Shown one piece after another: positions 56,646 through 64,000 of a stretch of 64,000 nucleotides of DNA. Every line of letters begins with the position of its first letter. The stretch's first letter is position 1. This DNA is from Arthrobacter sp. B3I9 (GTDB lineage Bacteria > Actinomycetota > Actinomycetes > Actinomycetales > Micrococcaceae): NCBI RefSeq assembly GCF_030816935.1, contig NZ_JAUSYO010000001.1, forward strand, positions 3,472,001 through 3,536,000. Direction: 5' to 3'. The notes beneath the pieces were generated by a model, which had not been told where the DNA came from, ran no database searches, and worked only from the letters and a program-made list of their open reading frames with translations. The position numbers and the translations under genes are program-made.

Positions 56646-58310
56646 TTGAAGACTCGTAGCGAAGTCAGTGCGGAGAAACTCAGGGGCGGCTTCTACACCC
56701 CCGCCAGGCTGGTCGCGCATGCGGTCGAGCGACTAGGTCAACTAGTCGGCTCGCACTCGACGGTTCGTGTCCTGGAGCCGAGCATCGGAGATGGTGCTTT
56801 TATCGAGGGTTTGGCTTCGGCCACTTTCAACATTTCGGAGCTGGTCGGCATCGAGATTCTGGGATCGGAAGCGGATAAAGCATCAGCACGACTGGAATCG
56901 AGCTCGCTGAACGGTACTGTTATCAACGACAGCACGCTTTCCTGGTCATTGAATGAGACCGAATCCACCTTTGATGCCGTCGTCGGCAATTTGCCCTTCG
57001 TCCGATTTCAGTTCGTTTCAGAGGCGGACCGCAAGGATGCCGCGTGCCACGCAACTGAACTCGGAATTAGTATTGGCGGCGTTGCCAACCTTTGGCTGCC
57101 GATGCTTTTGGCGTCTTTGCGTAAACTCCGGCGGGGAGGAGCATTCGTATTAGTACTTCCAGCGGAATGTCTTACCGGCGTTAGTGCTGGCTCAGCGCGT
57201 AAATGGCTTTTAGCGAATGTGGAGTCTCTTCGTTGTGACCTATACCCCGCCGGATCATTCCCTGGGGCGTTGCAGGAAATCGTACTTTTATCCGGAAGAA
57301 TTGCCAGGATGGAGTCTCCAACCTCTGCTCTTACCGTTGCTTTGCATTCCCGTTCACACTCCGATATGCAGTTTGCTGACTCTCACGCCATACTCTCTCG
57401 TCATGTCTTGTCGCCGCGGTCAGATAGTTGGACTCGTTTTCTTCTCACGCCTCAGCACCTAGATGCTCTCGAGGAATTTGAGAATATAGAGGCTGTGCAT
57501 ACGCTCGGGAAATTGGCGAAGTTTGAAGTGGCTATCGTCACAGGAGCCAACGCCTTCTTCTCCCTAACGGCCGCCCAAGTTGCCGACTACGACCTTGGAT
57601 CCTGGGTCCGCCCGCTCCTCCCTCGCTCCAGATTCGCCCCGGGGTTGGTCTTCAATTCCGAGGACTATGCATCGGCACTTAGCGCAGATGCTCCAATGTA
57701 CCTCTTAGACGCTTCGCTACAAGAAGGGGACCGAAGCCAGCACCCAGGTCTCGATGAGTTTCTCGCTGTAGGGGAAGGTCAAGAACTTCATTTGCGCTAT
57801 AAGTGCAGAATTCGATCCCCTTGGTGGGCAGTGCCAGGAATACGACGAGGTGACCTTTTCCTGAGTAAGCGTTGTCATCGTCACCCTCGAATGATCCTAA
57901 ATGAGACAGCGGCTGTTACGACCGACACCATCTACCGCGGTCGAATATTGCGTCCCGAGGTCGATGGACGGTCTCTTGTCGCAGGATTCCACAATTCAGG
58001 AACGCTCCTCTCCGCAGAGCTTGAAGGTCGAAACTTTGGCGGAGGCGTCCTCGAACTCGTGCCTTCCGAAGTATCCAGGCTGCAGGTGCCCCTAACCCCA
58101 GCGATGGGGGAAGAACTGGATCGGCTGGATAGGATTTCCCGCGAGGCCGCAGCTCGTGGTCCAGGTGAGGGTGAAGCAATCAGGCATGAGACCGACTTGC
58201 TGCTACGAAAGGCGCAGATCGGAGTCACCCAGACACTGCTCGACACTCTGGCGGATGCAAGGAGCGTACTCATGACACGCAGACTCGACCGTACGGCCGC
58301 AGAACGCTGA
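56646..58310 (+). CDS. N6-adenine DNA methyltransferase, probable Type II modification enzyme
   Basis: SAM-dependent methyltransferase of 554 residues. Order of motifs: X region GGFYTPARLVAHAVE, motif I VLEPSIGDGAF, acidic motif II VGIEI, and motif IV VVGNLPFVRFQ. The catalytic tetrad is NLPF rather than the usual NPPF/NPPY, an atypical second residue. The C-terminal half (about 260-520) is the target-recognition part. It starts at TTG with GAGGG upstream. DNA is visibly less GC-rich than the flanks, suggesting transfer. A PLD-type restriction endonuclease gene follows by 21 bp and is its likely partner. Confidence 0.83.
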   Translation: MKTRSEVSAEKLRGGFYTPARLVAHAVERLGQLVGSHSTVRVLEPSIGDGAFIEGLASATFNISELVGIEILGSEADKASARLESSSLNGTVINDSTLSWSLNETESTFDAVVGNLPFVRFQFVSEADRKDAACHATELGISIGGVANLWLPMLLASLRKLRRGGAFVLVLPAECLTGVSAGSARKWLLANVESLRCDLYPAGSFPGALQEIVLLSGRIARMESPTSALTVALHSRSHSDMQFADSHAILSRHVLSPRSDSWTRFLLTPQHLDALEEFENIEAVHTLGKLAKFEVAIVTGANAFFSLTAAQVADYDLGSWVRPLLPRSRFAPGLVFNSEDYASALSADAPMYLLDASLQEGDRSQHPGLDEFLAVGEGQELHLRYKCRIRSPWWAVPGIRRGDLFLSKRCHRHPRMILNETAAVTTDTIYRGRILRPEVDGRSLVAGFHNSGTLLSAELEGRNFGGGVLELVPSEVSRLQVPLTPAMGEELDRLDRISREAAARGPGEGEAIRHETDLLLRKAQIGVTQTLLDTLADARSVLMTRRLDRTAAER

Positions 58311-58331: not shown

Positions 58332-59561
58332 ATGTTTGGCCGCGTGCGAACTAATCTTGTTTTACAACCCTTTGCCGACGACGAGGCGCTAGTTGAAGTT
58401 CTTGCTGCCGCCCTCGCCAACGAACAGTATGAAAGCTTTCAGGTTGTCGTCGCCTGGGCCAGACCAAGCGGACTGCGGCACCTCGCCGACCATCTTGCTG
58501 CTTTCAGCTCTCGTGGCGGGGTCTGTGAGATTACGTTAGGCATTGACGAAGGCGGCGCAACCATAGAAGGTCTCGAACTGGCCCTGAATACCTTCGACAC
58601 AGCGAGCGTACTTTATGACGCATCAGGGGGGACGTTTCATCCGAAGATTTACCTGCTGCGGGGCCCCGACGAAGCCCTATTGATTGTTGGCTCCAACAAT
58701 CTCACCGCTGGTGGCCTCTACTTTAACTATGAAGCTGCTAGCGTGATGGCGCTGGATCTTGGGCTCGCGCCTGACCGGGAGGTTCTCGAAACGATCGAGG
58801 ACTTCATCAGCAGGCTTCGGACGGATACTACTTGTCTTGAACTAACTGCCGAACTAATAGAAGCGCTGGCGACTGACCCGCAATACGGCGTTCGGACCGA
58901 GCTACAGAGGGACAACACAAGGGGGGGCGAAGACTCAGTCATTCGTAACCCTAACGCCGATAACTCACTTTTTGGATCGAGCCAGCACCAGCGGAAACGT
59001 ATCAAACCCGTTGCGCCTGGCAGGCGGGAGCCGGCTCCATTCCGCGATCCAAAGCCAGCTACCCTTGCACAATCATCATCAGTGTCGGGAGATTCGCCTG
59101 CTCCTGTCGAGGCTCGGTGGAGCAAGAAGATGACCCGGAGCGACTGTGGACGACCTCGAGAGGGGTCCAATACGACAGGTGCCTTGCGCTTCACCAAGGC
59201 GGGGCACCCGATAAGGCAAGCAACTTGGTTCAGGGACGTGCTTTTCAGCGATGCCGACTGGGACGTTGATCCGACGCGTGACAACCGGGAGAGAACGTCG
59301 GTCAGGTTTGATGTTCAGCTCTATGGCTCCAAATTGGGTACGCACGTTCTCGCATTGAAATACGACCCGGAACGCGATGCCGAGCAGAACAACTTCACTA
59401 CAGACCTCAAATGGGGATCTCTCACTCCGGTCATAAGGTCCCAGGACCTCGTAGGCTCGTTCGTCGTCATAGAGCGACTTGCGGACAAGACCTACCGAAT
59501 GAAGATCGAAATCGAACAGCCCGAAGACTTTCTGGACAATATTTCGACATTCTCCAGTTGA
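58332..59561 (+). CDS. PLD-type restriction endonuclease, BfiI/NgoFVII-like
   Basis: Protein of 409 residues. N-terminal PLD domain (about 1-180) with one HKD motif: FHPKIYLLRGPDEALLIVGSNN (His/Lys then Asn). The C-terminal half (about 255-395) has ARWSKKMTRSDCGRP and TGALRFTKAGHPI, YFR-like TWFRDVLFSDADWDV, as in NgoFVII and other B3-like DNA-recognition domains. BfiI joins the same two parts, needs no metal and dimerises to form one active site. Adjacent methyltransferase completes a Type II-like system. Central linker 185-250 is low-complexity. Confidence 0.8.
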   Translation: MFGRVRTNLVLQPFADDEALVEVLAAALANEQYESFQVVVAWARPSGLRHLADHLAAFSSRGGVCEITLGIDEGGATIEGLELALNTFDTASVLYDASGGTFHPKIYLLRGPDEALLIVGSNNLTAGGLYFNYEAASVMALDLGLAPDREVLETIEDFISRLRTDTTCLELTAELIEALATDPQYGVRTELQRDNTRGGEDSVIRNPNADNSLFGSSQHQRKRIKPVAPGRREPAPFRDPKPATLAQSSSVSGDSPAPVEARWSKKMTRSDCGRPREGSNTTGALRFTKAGHPIRQATWFRDVLFSDADWDVDPTRDNRERTSVRFDVQLYGSKLGTHVLALKYDPERDAEQNNFTTDLKWGSLTPVIRSQDLVGSFVVIERLADKTYRMKIEIEQPEDFLDNISTFSS

Positions 59562-59918: not shown

Positions 59919-61127
59919 ATGACTTCCCTCATCTCCTGGCTCGACGCGTCCACAGAGGAAAACTCGAAGATGCGCGAGCTTGTGAAGCTCTTTGGCACGC
60001 CGGAAACCACCGACGACCTCGGCATGGGGCAACTCCGCGATGCGATCAGCAACAGCCTGTTCCCGGGCACTTCTGTGCTGCACCTGGGCGCGCGCTACAT
60101 GCTCCTCGTTCCGTGGGCCTATCAAACCGCCCACCGCAGCACCCGAAATCCGGAAGACCTGCGCAAGCGGTCCGAGGAATCCGAGCGGCAGCTGATCGGC
60201 AGGCTCAAAGAAATCGGGGAGGAAAGCTACATCGGCCGCGACGCCGGACGGAACGTACAGCAGCTGCCGTCCGCCGCGTACTGGACCGCGCTGCGCACCT
60301 ACGGCATCGTCAGCCCGGACACTGACCGCTCGGCCGTCACCCAGCTCATGTGTGCCGACGCCCCCGCGCCCGAAGAGGGCGAAAGCAGCTATTCGGTCTG
60401 GAACCAGACCCTCCCGAAACCTCCGGCAGGCTTTCCCCAGTCCGAAGAACGCGGACTCAAGCTGTCCCCCGACGAAGCCCGCTGGCTGCAGGAACGCATC
60501 CTGACCACCTGCCCTGGCACCATGCTGGCCCACGTCGTCGGATCCGAGGTAAGCCCCACCCCGGGACTTTGGGCACCGTGGCTGGACCCGGCGTGCCGCA
60601 GCGCGGAGGGTGACCCCGCGCAATGGCTCAAGGACGCCGAAGCGTTCTCCTTCATCCACAACGGCGCCACCATTTTGTACCAGCACCTGCTCGCGGACCT
60701 TTCGGCAAAGGTCTTCTCCGCCGGCGAGGACACTTTGGAGCCCACGCAGGAACTGCTCGCAGCGTGGGAGGAGCAGCGGGACAGTAAGCGCGAGCTCCTC
60801 GCCGAATGGGACGTCGACGGTTTCATCGCCCGCGCCACGGCACTGAACCGCGGCATCAACAGCAACACCGCCGCCTTCGCGCGGGCCATAGCCGAGGCGG
60901 CCACAAGCCCGGGCAAACTGATCGACAACCGGGACTTCCGTGCCGCCGTCGAAACCCGGGAGAAGCTGATGAAGAAGTCCAACTCGCGGTTCCGCAACGA
61001 ACGCCGGCTCCGCGCATGGCAGCCGCCGGCCCGGGTGGCAGCTCTGACGTTCCGTTGGACGCAAGTACGCCGGAATGTCCTGGACATCCACGCAGGACTC
61101 GCACTGGAAGGGCAGTCGAATGCTTGA
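59919..61127 (+). CDS. DUF6361 family protein, first gene of PLD-helicase operon
   Basis: Protein of 402 residues matching DUF6361, a soluble family of unknown function found beside PLD and helicase genes. Opening SLISWLDASTEENSKMRELV and the block LGMGQLRDAISNSLFPGTS near 36-60 are typical; RYMLLVPWAYQ and SVWNQTLPKPPAGFP follow. No nuclease or nucleotide motif is seen, so it may be a scaffold, sensor or adaptor of a defence complex. Its stop overlaps the PLD gene start, so translation is coupled. Confidence 0.75.
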   Translation: MTSLISWLDASTEENSKMRELVKLFGTPETTDDLGMGQLRDAISNSLFPGTSVLHLGARYMLLVPWAYQTAHRSTRNPEDLRKRSEESERQLIGRLKEIGEESYIGRDAGRNVQQLPSAAYWTALRTYGIVSPDTDRSAVTQLMCADAPAPEEGESSYSVWNQTLPKPPAGFPQSEERGLKLSPDEARWLQERILTTCPGTMLAHVVGSEVSPTPGLWAPWLDPACRSAEGDPAQWLKDAEAFSFIHNGATILYQHLLADLSAKVFSAGEDTLEPTQELLAAWEEQRDSKRELLAEWDVDGFIARATALNRGINSNTAAFARAIAEAATSPGKLIDNRDFRAAVETREKLMKKSNSRFRNERRLRAWQPPARVAALTFRWTQVRRNVLDIHAGLALEGQSNA

Positions 61128-63000
61128 GGCAGCAAACAGGCAGGCACTCACCCAGCAGCTGCGCCCTCCAGCAGGATTTCGGCTCTCCCACGCCGTCGGC
61201 ACCACCTTCACCCTGGACATGACCAGCGCCCTCTCGGTACCGCTGAGCTTCGTCGCCGGCTCCGGCGAGGAATTCACAAATCCGGTGGCGGTGCTCAGCG
61301 CCCTGCGCAAAGTCTCCTACCGGGTAGACATCTTTTGCCAGGCCGGCCACATCAAGGCGCCCTCGGATGCATCGGACCTGCTCGCACTGCTGGAGCCGAT
61401 GGTCCACCAGGTCAGCGTACGGCGCGGACTGTTCCACCCCAAGATCTGGCTCCTCGAATTCGAGAACGACACCGAGCGCCGCTACCGCTTCCTGTGCAGC
61501 ACCCGCAACCTCACCACCGACGCCAGCTGGGACCTCCTCGTCCGGCTGGACGGCGAACCCGTGAAGGACGCCGAGAATGCCGGCCCGGACAGCGCACCTC
61601 TGGCGCGCTTCATCGCCGGGCTCCCCGATCTCTGCACAGTGACGCCCGACGCCGGGCGGCTCGCCCGGGTGCGCGGCCTCGCCTCCCGCCTGGCGGACGT
61701 CCGCTGGGATCTGCCCGAGGACATCCACCGCCTGGCTTTCCGCCCGATGGGCATGGGCGAAGACTTCGAGCAGGGCTCAATCGTCGCGCACCTCCGCGAC
61801 CCGGGAAACTTCAAGGCTCTCAACGGCAAGACCGGGAACGGGGCCCATTTTGGTCGGGAGAAGCTGGTTATCTCGCCCTTCCTCGACGACACGATGCTCG
61901 GCCGGTTGCGGGACCCGTGGACGGACAACCTCTACGTCTACTCACACGGGGACCAGCTGGATCTCCTCAACGAGACAACGGTGGGTGATACCCGAACGTC
62001 GTTTAAGGCTTTTGACGAGCTCGGCGTCCCCGAATCGTCGGAGTCAGGGCAAAGCCATGTGGACGAGTCCGGACTCCAGCGCGTTGCTGACGATCTCACC
62101 GGCCTGCACGCCAAGGCCTACTTCTGCGACTACGACCACCATACTTACGCGCTTCTCGGGTCTGCCAACGCCACCGAAGCAGGTTTCACCAGGAACGTGG
62201 AGTTCCTGCTGGAAATGCGGGGAGCCAAGAAACGCCTGGGGGTGCAGCGCATCCGGGAGAGCCTCAAGGACGTGCCCTTCGCCGACTATCTGGGCGCCGG
62301 CGGCGCAGCCCGACCGGAAGAAGACGTGGCCGCCTTCCGGCTGGAGAACGCCCTGCGCGACGCAGCAGCGCAACGATTCCTCCTCGACGCCGTCCCCGAG
62401 GGCGACGCCAAAAACAACTTCGCGGTGACGGTCTCGCATGACTGGTCGCCGAAGCCCGAGTTCACCGCGAAGTTGCGTCTCCTTTCGCTCCCCCAGCCGA
62501 GCGCCGTCGTCGAGCCCTCCGGGGGTCAGCACGCACACGCTTTCCACGCCATACCGCTGGCAGACGTAACCCCGTATCTGGTACTGACCATGGAGGACCC
62601 GGCGGCCGGGCTGTCCAAGAGCACGGTGATTCAGGGCGTCCTGCGCACCGATCCTGCCGGGCGCCTGGATGAGATCATCGCCCGTCAGCTGGACGACCCG
62701 CAAAAGCTCCGGCAGTTTCTGCTGTTGTTCCTTACCCCCGAGGACGCCCTTCCGGGGTCGGGGACTGGCGCCGGATGGTTCGCCGGTTCAGGGTTCGGCG
62801 ACGGATCCACCGCCGGACTGTTCGAAGCGATGGTCGGCGCCATGGCGGGTCCGGACGCCGGTTCGGTTTTCCCGGATCTGAAGGTAGTCATGGACCGGCT
62901 GCTCGCTCTTCGCGGCGATGACCCGGAGATTCAGCAGCTGCACGCGCTCTGGACGGCAGCCACCGAAGCATTGGAAATTGGGGAACTTCATGGGGTTTGA
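61120..63000 (+). CDS. Twin-HKD phospholipase D-like protein of anti-phage type
   Basis: Protein of 626 residues with two PLD motifs: FHPKIWLLEFEND (His/Lys near 106-108) and LHAKAYFCDYDHHTYALLGSAN (near 328-350). Two HKD motifs in one chain can form an active site without dimerisation. A C-terminal 220-residue region has no recognised domain. The ATG at 61120 has GAAGGG upstream and lies inside the end of the DUF6361 gene; it overlaps the helicase start at 62990. Likely a nuclease of the defence system. DISARM DrmC is a PLD protein too, but the rest of DISARM is absent. Confidence 0.8.
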   Translation: MLEAANRQALTQQLRPPAGFRLSHAVGTTFTLDMTSALSVPLSFVAGSGEEFTNPVAVLSALRKVSYRVDIFCQAGHIKAPSDASDLLALLEPMVHQVSVRRGLFHPKIWLLEFENDTERRYRFLCSTRNLTTDASWDLLVRLDGEPVKDAENAGPDSAPLARFIAGLPDLCTVTPDAGRLARVRGLASRLADVRWDLPEDIHRLAFRPMGMGEDFEQGSIVAHLRDPGNFKALNGKTGNGAHFGREKLVISPFLDDTMLGRLRDPWTDNLYVYSHGDQLDLLNETTVGDTRTSFKAFDELGVPESSESGQSHVDESGLQRVADDLTGLHAKAYFCDYDHHTYALLGSANATEAGFTRNVEFLLEMRGAKKRLGVQRIRESLKDVPFADYLGAGGAARPEEDVAAFRLENALRDAAAQRFLLDAVPEGDAKNNFAVTVSHDWSPKPEFTAKLRLLSLPQPSAVVEPSGGQHAHAFHAIPLADVTPYLVLTMEDPAAGLSKSTVIQGVLRTDPAGRLDEIIARQLDDPQKLRQFLLLFLTPEDALPGSGTGAGWFAGSGFGDGSTAGLFEAMVGAMAGPDAGSVFPDLKVVMDRLLALRGDDPEIQQLHALWTAATEALEIGELHGV

Positions 63001-64000
63001 GGCAACGCCCGCGCTGGATGGATTGAGGGGTTTCCAGCGCCGCACCGTGGAACATGTCTTCAAGCGTCTCTACCTGGACGACCAGCCGGCGGACCGCTTC
63101 CTTGTCGCGGACGAGACCGGGCTGGGTAAGAGCATGGTGGCCCGCGGCGTCATCGCCAAGGCCATTGAGATGCTCGACCGGCCCGACTCCGGGGTGAACC
63201 GCATCGACGTCGTCTATGTCTGCTCCAACGCTGACCTGGCCAGGCAGAACCTCAGCCGGCTGAACGTCACCGGGCAAAAGGACATCATCGAGTCCGGCCG
63301 GCTCACACTGCTACCCACCGAGCTGGCCAAGCTCAACGCTCTGGCCGCGCCGGGAACACGGAAGCGCGTCGACTTCATCTCGCTGACCCCGGGCACGTCA
63401 TTCAACGTGGGCGGAGCAACGGGCCAGGCGAAGGAACGCGCCGTGCTCTTCCGCATTATCGCGCAGCTTGGCGTGATCAGCGAGGAACAGCACGACGACG
63501 CCGTCGAGCTCCTTCGTGCGGGCGCATCCCCACAGAACTTCGCGCGCCGCGTCCAGTACATGCACGAGCAGTTCCCGGACGGTTTCTCGGTCCCTGTCCG
63601 GAACCGCTTCCGCACGCTGGCGCACCAAAGCGGCAACCTCCCGGCGTTCCGCAAGGCCCTGCGCGAGGCGGCGCGCGATGGGGCGGAGACCGTCCGGCCG
63701 CGCATGAGCTCCATAATCGGCGGGCTCCGGGGAGACCTGGCCCAGGCTGGGCTGGATTGCCTGGAACCTGATCTGATCATCTTGGACGAGTTCCAGCGCT
63801 TCCGCGATTTGCTCTACTCCCCCGGCTCCGCGCCCGACGACGAGGATTCGGCGGCAGAACTGGCCAGGCAGTTCCTGAATTACAAGGGCGCCAAACTGAT
63901 CCTTCTCTCGGCCACGCCGTACAAGGCGCACACCGGTGCGAACGAGGAAGACGGTGACGACCACGCAGCCGATTTCCGGCAGCTGCTGCGTTTCCTGAGC
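62990..64000 (+). CDS. DEAD/SNF2-type helicase, 3' end beyond window
   Basis: The first 337 residues of a superfamily 2 helicase. Motif Q-like GFQRRTVEHVF, Walker A DETGLGKSMVARG (41-53), Walker B DEFQRFRDL (near 266) and motif III LSATPYKAH (near 307). The ATG at 62990 overlaps the PLD stop by 11 bp with GGGGAA upstream, so the three genes are one coupled operon. The frame is open at the window end. It probably supplies ATP-driven translocation or duplex opening for the PLD nuclease. Confidence 0.85.
   Translation, partial: MGFEATPALDGLRGFQRRTVEHVFKRLYLDDQPADRFLVADETGLGKSMVARGVIAKAIEMLDRPDSGVNRIDVVYVCSNADLARQNLSRLNVTGQKDIIESGRLTLLPTELAKLNALAAPGTRKRVDFISLTPGTSFNVGGATGQAKERAVLFRIIAQLGVISEEQHDDAVELLRAGASPQNFARRVQYMHEQFPDGFSVPVRNRFRTLAHQSGNLPAFRKALREAARDGAETVRPRMSSIIGGLRGDLAQAGLDCLEPDLIILDEFQRFRDLLYSPGSAPDDEDSAAELARQFLNYKGAKLILLSATPYKAHTGANEEDGDDHAADFRQLLRFLS

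Follow-up and report, generated by a model that had tools for sequence, protein, structure and literature searches.

Azaca was reportedly tested against phages by Millman et al. in 2022. The Zac gene prefix belongs to this system, since "Azaca (ZacC)" stands among the DefenseFinder helicases in a passage of PMC12278908. A passage of PMC10952713, in which Millman et al. 2022 is cited, lists a phospholipase D (PLD)-like domain for both Mokosh and Azaca, and a table in PMC10855318 files Azaca under nucleic acid degradation. The system is presented as enriched in Actinobacteria and as having an unknown mechanism in a passage of PMC10482375; its mechanism is likewise called unknown in a passage of PMC12926258. 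A described enzyme with similar parts is SauUSI. According to a passage of PMC7913695, target recognition by SauUSI starts ATP-driven translocation by its superfamily 2 (SF2) motor, and the coupled PLD nuclease shreds the DNA. Here we describe three overlapping genes at the end of a stretch of 64,000 nucleotides (the window), which corresponds to positions 3472001-3536000 of a one-contig 4.12-Mb genome. Judging by their sequences, these genes almost certainly make up an Azaca (ZacABC) anti-phage locus that is intact and belongs to an Arthrobacter-like actinobacterium, the genus being assigned from the nearest named proteins.

Identification of the Azaca Locus

The three genes are located as follows (L002 and L003 denote the extended sequence):

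zacA: 59919..61127, + strand, DUF6361 protein of 402 amino acid residues (aa), all-helical in the AlphaFold2 model; PF19888 at 131.6 bits; PADLOC ZacA
zacB: 61120..63000, + strand, protein of 626 aa with a predicted two-lobed PLD fold; ATG start at 61120
zacC, 5' part: 62990..64000, + strand, SF2-type helicase; ATG at 62990; full gene to 66142 (L002:8991-12143), 1050 aa

An earlier note, made from the letters of the window, had proposed that three genes overlapping in series encode a DUF6361 protein, a twin-HKD PLD nuclease and an SF2 helicase. The gene coordinates and overlaps were confirmed exactly. By the coordinates of the open reading frames (ORFs), zacA and zacB overlap by 8 bases, the start codon of zacB lying inside the 3' end of zacA, and zacB and zacC overlap by 11 bases. 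The operon had been expected to reach past the window, and in the extended sequence zacC indeed runs to a stop at 66142, giving 1050 aa when counted from the overlapping start. The protein calls also stood: the PF19888 score of the first product far exceeds the cut-off of 25 bits, the second product carries two HxK motifs, and the third carries the SF2-type helicase motifs ADETGLGK, DEFQ, SATP and QREGRVHR.

Using the models of PADLOC-DB 2.0.0, we showed that all three proteins match Azaca components over nearly their whole length. ZacA matches PDLC03828 (E 2.7e-109, 364.4 bits, model 1-394/396), ZacB matches PDLC03829 (E 4.6e-144, 479.5 bits, model 1-582/586), and ZacC matches PDLC03830 (E 0, 1016.5 bits, model 5-999/1019). 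The genes are full-length, adjacent, in the order A-B-C and on a single strand, and the nearest named relatives of ZacA are Arthrobacter proteins. Thus, the novelty suggested by the earlier note falls away, because the locus matches an already named system, and the candidate of a new, unnamed system was rejected on these matches. That the genes form a separate unnamed system merely resembling Azaca is hardly credible: Pfam and NCBIfam give these proteins no Azaca label, but the three bit scores over near full-length models refute this idea. The locus is a further Azaca member, and we found nothing in it that departs from the type. The description "under-described" is still fair with regard to the mechanism, which the literature passages cited above describe as unknown. 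In our literature search no paper on DUF6361 turned up, the PADLOC 2021 paper contained no mention of zac, and no title found for Azaca and phages named the mechanism. There is no need to pursue this operon as a new system; the locus itself is ordinary, and the remaining interest lies in how Azaca works.

Conservation of the Gene Order

DUF6361 was found in 8 of 396 genomes of a phylum sample and in 9 of 198 genomes of a genus sample; both counts include the genome of the window. None of 14 control genomes had it. The two samples gave 16 distinct loci. In 12 of them the order is A-B-C, two are truncated at the end of a contig (L020, L023), and two retain only a ZacA fragment (L024, L026). Named genomes were scanned with a ZacC alignment, which confirmed at least 435 relatives; the best 80 of them (79 loci) were kept. 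The 95 loci considered in all were therefore mostly chosen by ZacC likeness, and one genome is counted twice among them (L032 and L035).

The earlier note had asked for a check of conserved gene order. It turned out that the three genes stand in the order A-B-C on one strand in 81 of the 95 loci, so the arrangement is beyond chance. The other 14 loci are either cut by contig ends (10) or partial (L024, L026, L037 and L112). Among 78 single-copy loci, zacA and zacB overlap in 69 and zacB and zacC in 77; these are upper estimates, since each ORF was taken from its first possible start. Hosts of full loci include Actinomycetota, Chloroflexi, Pseudomonadota, Planctomycetota, cyanobacteria and a methanogenic archaeon.

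One partial locus, from a member of Planctomycetota (CP053450.1, L112:9100-13189), has ZacC and a short ZacB, and no ZacA was found in the 9 kb upstream. By its sequence, this is apparently a decayed or reduced Azaca. ZacC relatives also occur in 46 plasmid records. In addition, a relative of ZacC (31.6% identity, 88% covered) is encoded at MT835621.1:16155-19271, within a 24-kb record labelled "Bacteriophage sp." from human faecal samples.

Active-Site Residues and Predicted Folds

The PLD motifs of ZacB are HPK at 106-108 with N130, and HAK at 330-332 with N350 and E361. The residues were counted in 90 ZacB ORFs, of which 80 are full-length (560 aa or more). Both HxK motifs and all seven PLD residues are intact in 80 of these 80 homologues, while some of the seven are missing or different in the 10 shorter, cut or split ORFs. 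For structure prediction, the ZacB alignment contained 54 rows, 19 of the 72 rows of fitting length being left out (11 genome-sample rows and 8 others). In a structure search with the resulting model, residues 1-404 were predicted to fold like PLD3, PLD4 and Tdp1, and SauUSI, NgoAVII and BfiI were also among the matches. The sequence profile of ZacB finds SauUSI at E 1.9e-6, and BfiI only at E 0.064. The Pfam match to PLDc_2 (22.8 bits) is below the cut-off of 27. ZacB has an extra C-terminal part, beta and helical, at about residues 421-623.

The ZacA alignment contained 63 rows, 7 of them from a protein search; from 64 rows of suitable length, 9 genome-sample rows were omitted. The AlphaFold2 model of ZacA consists of helices only and has a predicted local distance difference test (pLDDT) score of 89.4 and a predicted template modelling (pTM) score of 0.87. 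No entry of PDB or BFVD matched its fold with an E of 0.001 or lower. A confident model that matches no fold makes ZacA a good target for structure work.

Genomic Neighbourhood and Extent of the Core Operon

The genes around Azaca are the following:

Eco57I-like type II methyltransferase: 56646..58310, + strand; PF22837 at 120.4 bits, PADLOC MTase_II at E 6.4e-116; neighbour, not part of Azaca
Single-HxK PLD protein: 58332..59561, + strand; PF13091 at 22.2 bits, below the cut-off of 27; neighbour, not part of Azaca
OGG-like gene: 66257-66970 (L002:12258-12971), downstream of zacC
585-aa protein: 67159-68916 (L002:13160-14917), + strand; no family match
SauUSI-like type IV restriction gene: 68919-72075 (L002:14920-18076), - strand, downstream of Azaca
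ThiF/E1-like protein: 75349-76758 (L003:1449-2858), + strand; PF00899 at 91.4 bits
Type II Wadjet, complete (JetA2-JetB2-JetC2-JetD2): 76751-85188 (L003:2851-11288), + strand; PADLOC

These genes place the locus in a defence island, which also holds a SauUSI-like enzyme and, some 10 kb downstream of Azaca, a type II Wadjet operon with its full gene set. Defence neighbours, a second check named in the earlier note, were also found elsewhere. At other loci, restriction genes of types I and III recur as neighbours, as do DrmD, DruE, a UvrD-type helicase and SauUSI-like enzymes. At least one of nine recurring families is present in 39 of the 67 Azaca-gene loci that span at least 19 kb. Among the phylum- and genus-sample loci, at least one of the nine families was found at 11 of 14, against 1 of 20 control stretches taken from 12 of those 14 genomes; the comparison leans towards enrichment, since the families were picked because they recur at these same loci. 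The UvrD-type helicase is not defence-specific, and the sole control match came from it.

The earlier note had also expected that further genes beyond the window might define the type. This is not supported: no neighbour family exceeds 11 of the 95 loci, which indicates that the shared core consists of zacA, zacB and zacC and that no linked methylase can be general. There is no methylase inside the overlapping operon, and neither the Eco57I-like methylase nor the single-HxK PLD protein was found in 15 other phylum- and genus-sample stretches (2 of them under 5 kb). The restriction-modification pair proposed next to the operon consists of this methylase and this PLD protein, the latter with a sub-threshold PF13091 score; as a pair it is plausible but unproven. 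The PLD protein may be the restriction enzyme of the preceding methylase, as a BfiI-like nuclease. The EVE-like reader proposed alongside them rests on one weak match, to PRK00809 (16.7 bits, E 0.0044, cut-off 139), which we take to be an EVE-type family.

No linked methylase explains how self DNA is spared. One alternative reading of Azaca is abortive action. An infection cue (fork damage, DNA ends or a phage enzyme) would free ZacB to cut host and phage DNA, with ZacA or ZacC acting as a brake in the way HamB restrains HamA in Hachiman. The lack of a generally linked methylase to mark self favours this idea, as does the example of Hachiman, a nuclease-helicase complex that senses genome integrity according to a passage of PMC12278908. 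However, the three-gene layout fits a restriction-like complex equally well, and we regard abortive action as unlikely, though still to be reckoned with.

Another alternative is modification-dependent (type IV-like) restriction, in which the Azaca complex would recognize modified phage DNA as a multi-chain counterpart of SauUSI. The complex would share with SauUSI the PLD nuclease and the SF2 motor, and few neighbour families are commoner than the SauUSI-like genes, which occur at 12 of 67 long loci. In contrast, the DUF3427 that Pfam finds in the neighbouring SauUSI-like protein is missing from its matches to ZacC, and neither ZacA nor ZacB has a Pfam match to a reader domain (the C-terminal part of ZacB was not searched separately). 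This alternative therefore seems improbable.

On the downstream side, the end of zacC is separated from the OGG-like gene by 114 bases. This gene was rejected as a fourth operon member, because it was not found in the 15 other phylum- and genus-sample stretches; of the 198 genus genomes, 33 carry its family, whereas 9 carry DUF6361. The gap and the absence of the OGG-like gene beside Zac genes elsewhere show that the core operon ends with the helicase. The 585-aa protein has no match in Pfam, PADLOC, NCBIfam or PHROGs. A protein search in which 8000 candidates were scored gave a family of 20 proteins including itself. Strong matches are present in 5 of 198 genus genomes, in 4 of them beside Azaca; the fifth carrier (L154) has no Zac gene in the surrounding 20 kb. 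The probability of this co-occurrence by chance is about 1e-5, but common ancestry of the island would produce such a pattern too. Since the protein is missing from 5 of 9 genus-sample Azaca genomes, it is not part of the core.

Two further observations concern the island. The SauUSI-like gene is split over two frames, the ORFs covering model positions 16-105 and 105-942; a frame change near L002:17473 seems to have broken it, unless the sequence there should be checked for an error. The ThiF/E1-like ORF and the jetA ORF of Wadjet share 8 bases, the end of the former running into the start of the latter; an E1-like companion was not expected for Wadjet.

Proposed Mechanism

Taken as a whole, the data are probably best explained by an Azaca locus that encodes a motor-nuclease complex. 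By analogy with SauUSI, in which a PLD nuclease works together with an SF2 motor as a translocating DNA shredder, the chances are roughly even that Azaca acts as an ATP-driven translocase-nuclease complex. ZacA, ZacB and ZacC would assemble into a single complex. In it, ZacC, an SF2-type motor whose second motor lobe carries a large insertion, would load on invading DNA and move along it using ATP, delivering the DNA to ZacB. ZacB, whose two HxK motifs are predicted to build one active site per chain, would cut the presented DNA via a covalent phosphohistidine step. Such a step is the chemistry of the PLD family. All-helical ZacA may link ZacB and ZacC as an adaptor, a recognition part or a brake. 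This gives a testable picture of Azaca, in which the residues of interest are H106, K108, H330 and K332 of ZacB and K47 of ZacC.

Several results weigh against a DNA-translocating nuclease. The Pfam match of ZacC to Helicase_C (28.1 bits, cut-off 23.5) is partial, covering only 45 residues, and that to DEAD (23.5 bits) is below the cut-off of 26; with such partial profile matches, motor activity is deduced from the motifs. The ZacB structure search ranks vaccinia F13 and a phospholipase D highest, and its matches also include phosphatidylserine synthase and polyphosphate kinase. The PLD fold thus serves lipid and phosphate enzymes too, so that DNA as the substrate of ZacB is suggested by the nuclease matches and by the setting. 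Finally, the conservation panel, with its best 80 of at least 435 relatives, favours close relatives.

A more detailed version of the motor-nuclease complex is rather doubtful as a whole. In it, Azaca would be a helicase-driven anti-phage nuclease that can do without a modification partner, and a motor whose second lobe is split would feed DNA to a single-chain, two-lobed PLD nuclease of the Tdp1/PLD3 kind. ZacA would serve as recognition part or brake with a fold unseen in solved structures, and the 585-aa orphan family would be a lineage-specific accessory in Arthrobacter.

Comparison with Known Systems

The earlier note had excluded DISARM and other named sets, and we uphold this. ZacB resembles DrmC and ZacC resembles DrmD only distantly, at the level of motifs. 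Membership in DISARM was rejected on the NCBIfam scores (DrmC 20.0 bits against a cut-off of 133, DrmD 40.2 against 610), and a PADLOC scan of 17 protein pieces from the island gave no match to DrmB (DUF1998). Mokosh is similar in having a PLD-like domain (passage of PMC10952713) and the helicases MkoA and MkoC (passage of PMC12278908). It was rejected because no MkoA, MkoB or MkoC model matched ZacA, ZacB or ZacC at E 0.1 (1, 6 and 24 families matched, respectively). Hachiman (HamAB) is presented in its literature passages as a helicase with a nuclease partner, a likeness to Azaca. However, HamB is close to Ski2 helicases according to a passage of PMC12278908, and no Hachiman model is among the PADLOC matches.

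SauUSI is similar in combining a PLD nuclease with an SF2 motor, and ZacB matches it by both sequence and predicted fold. A single-chain enzyme of the SauUSI type was rejected, since the PLD part and the motor are on separate chains and ZacC has no DUF3427. SauUSI holds the PLD, the SF2 motor and further domains in one chain, whereas Azaca distributes nuclease and motor over two chains and adds ZacA. A passage of PMC7913695 describes the SauUSI site as composed of the HxK motifs of two protomers. In contrast, ZacB has two HxK motifs in one chain, and from its sequence the nuclease site should form within one chain.

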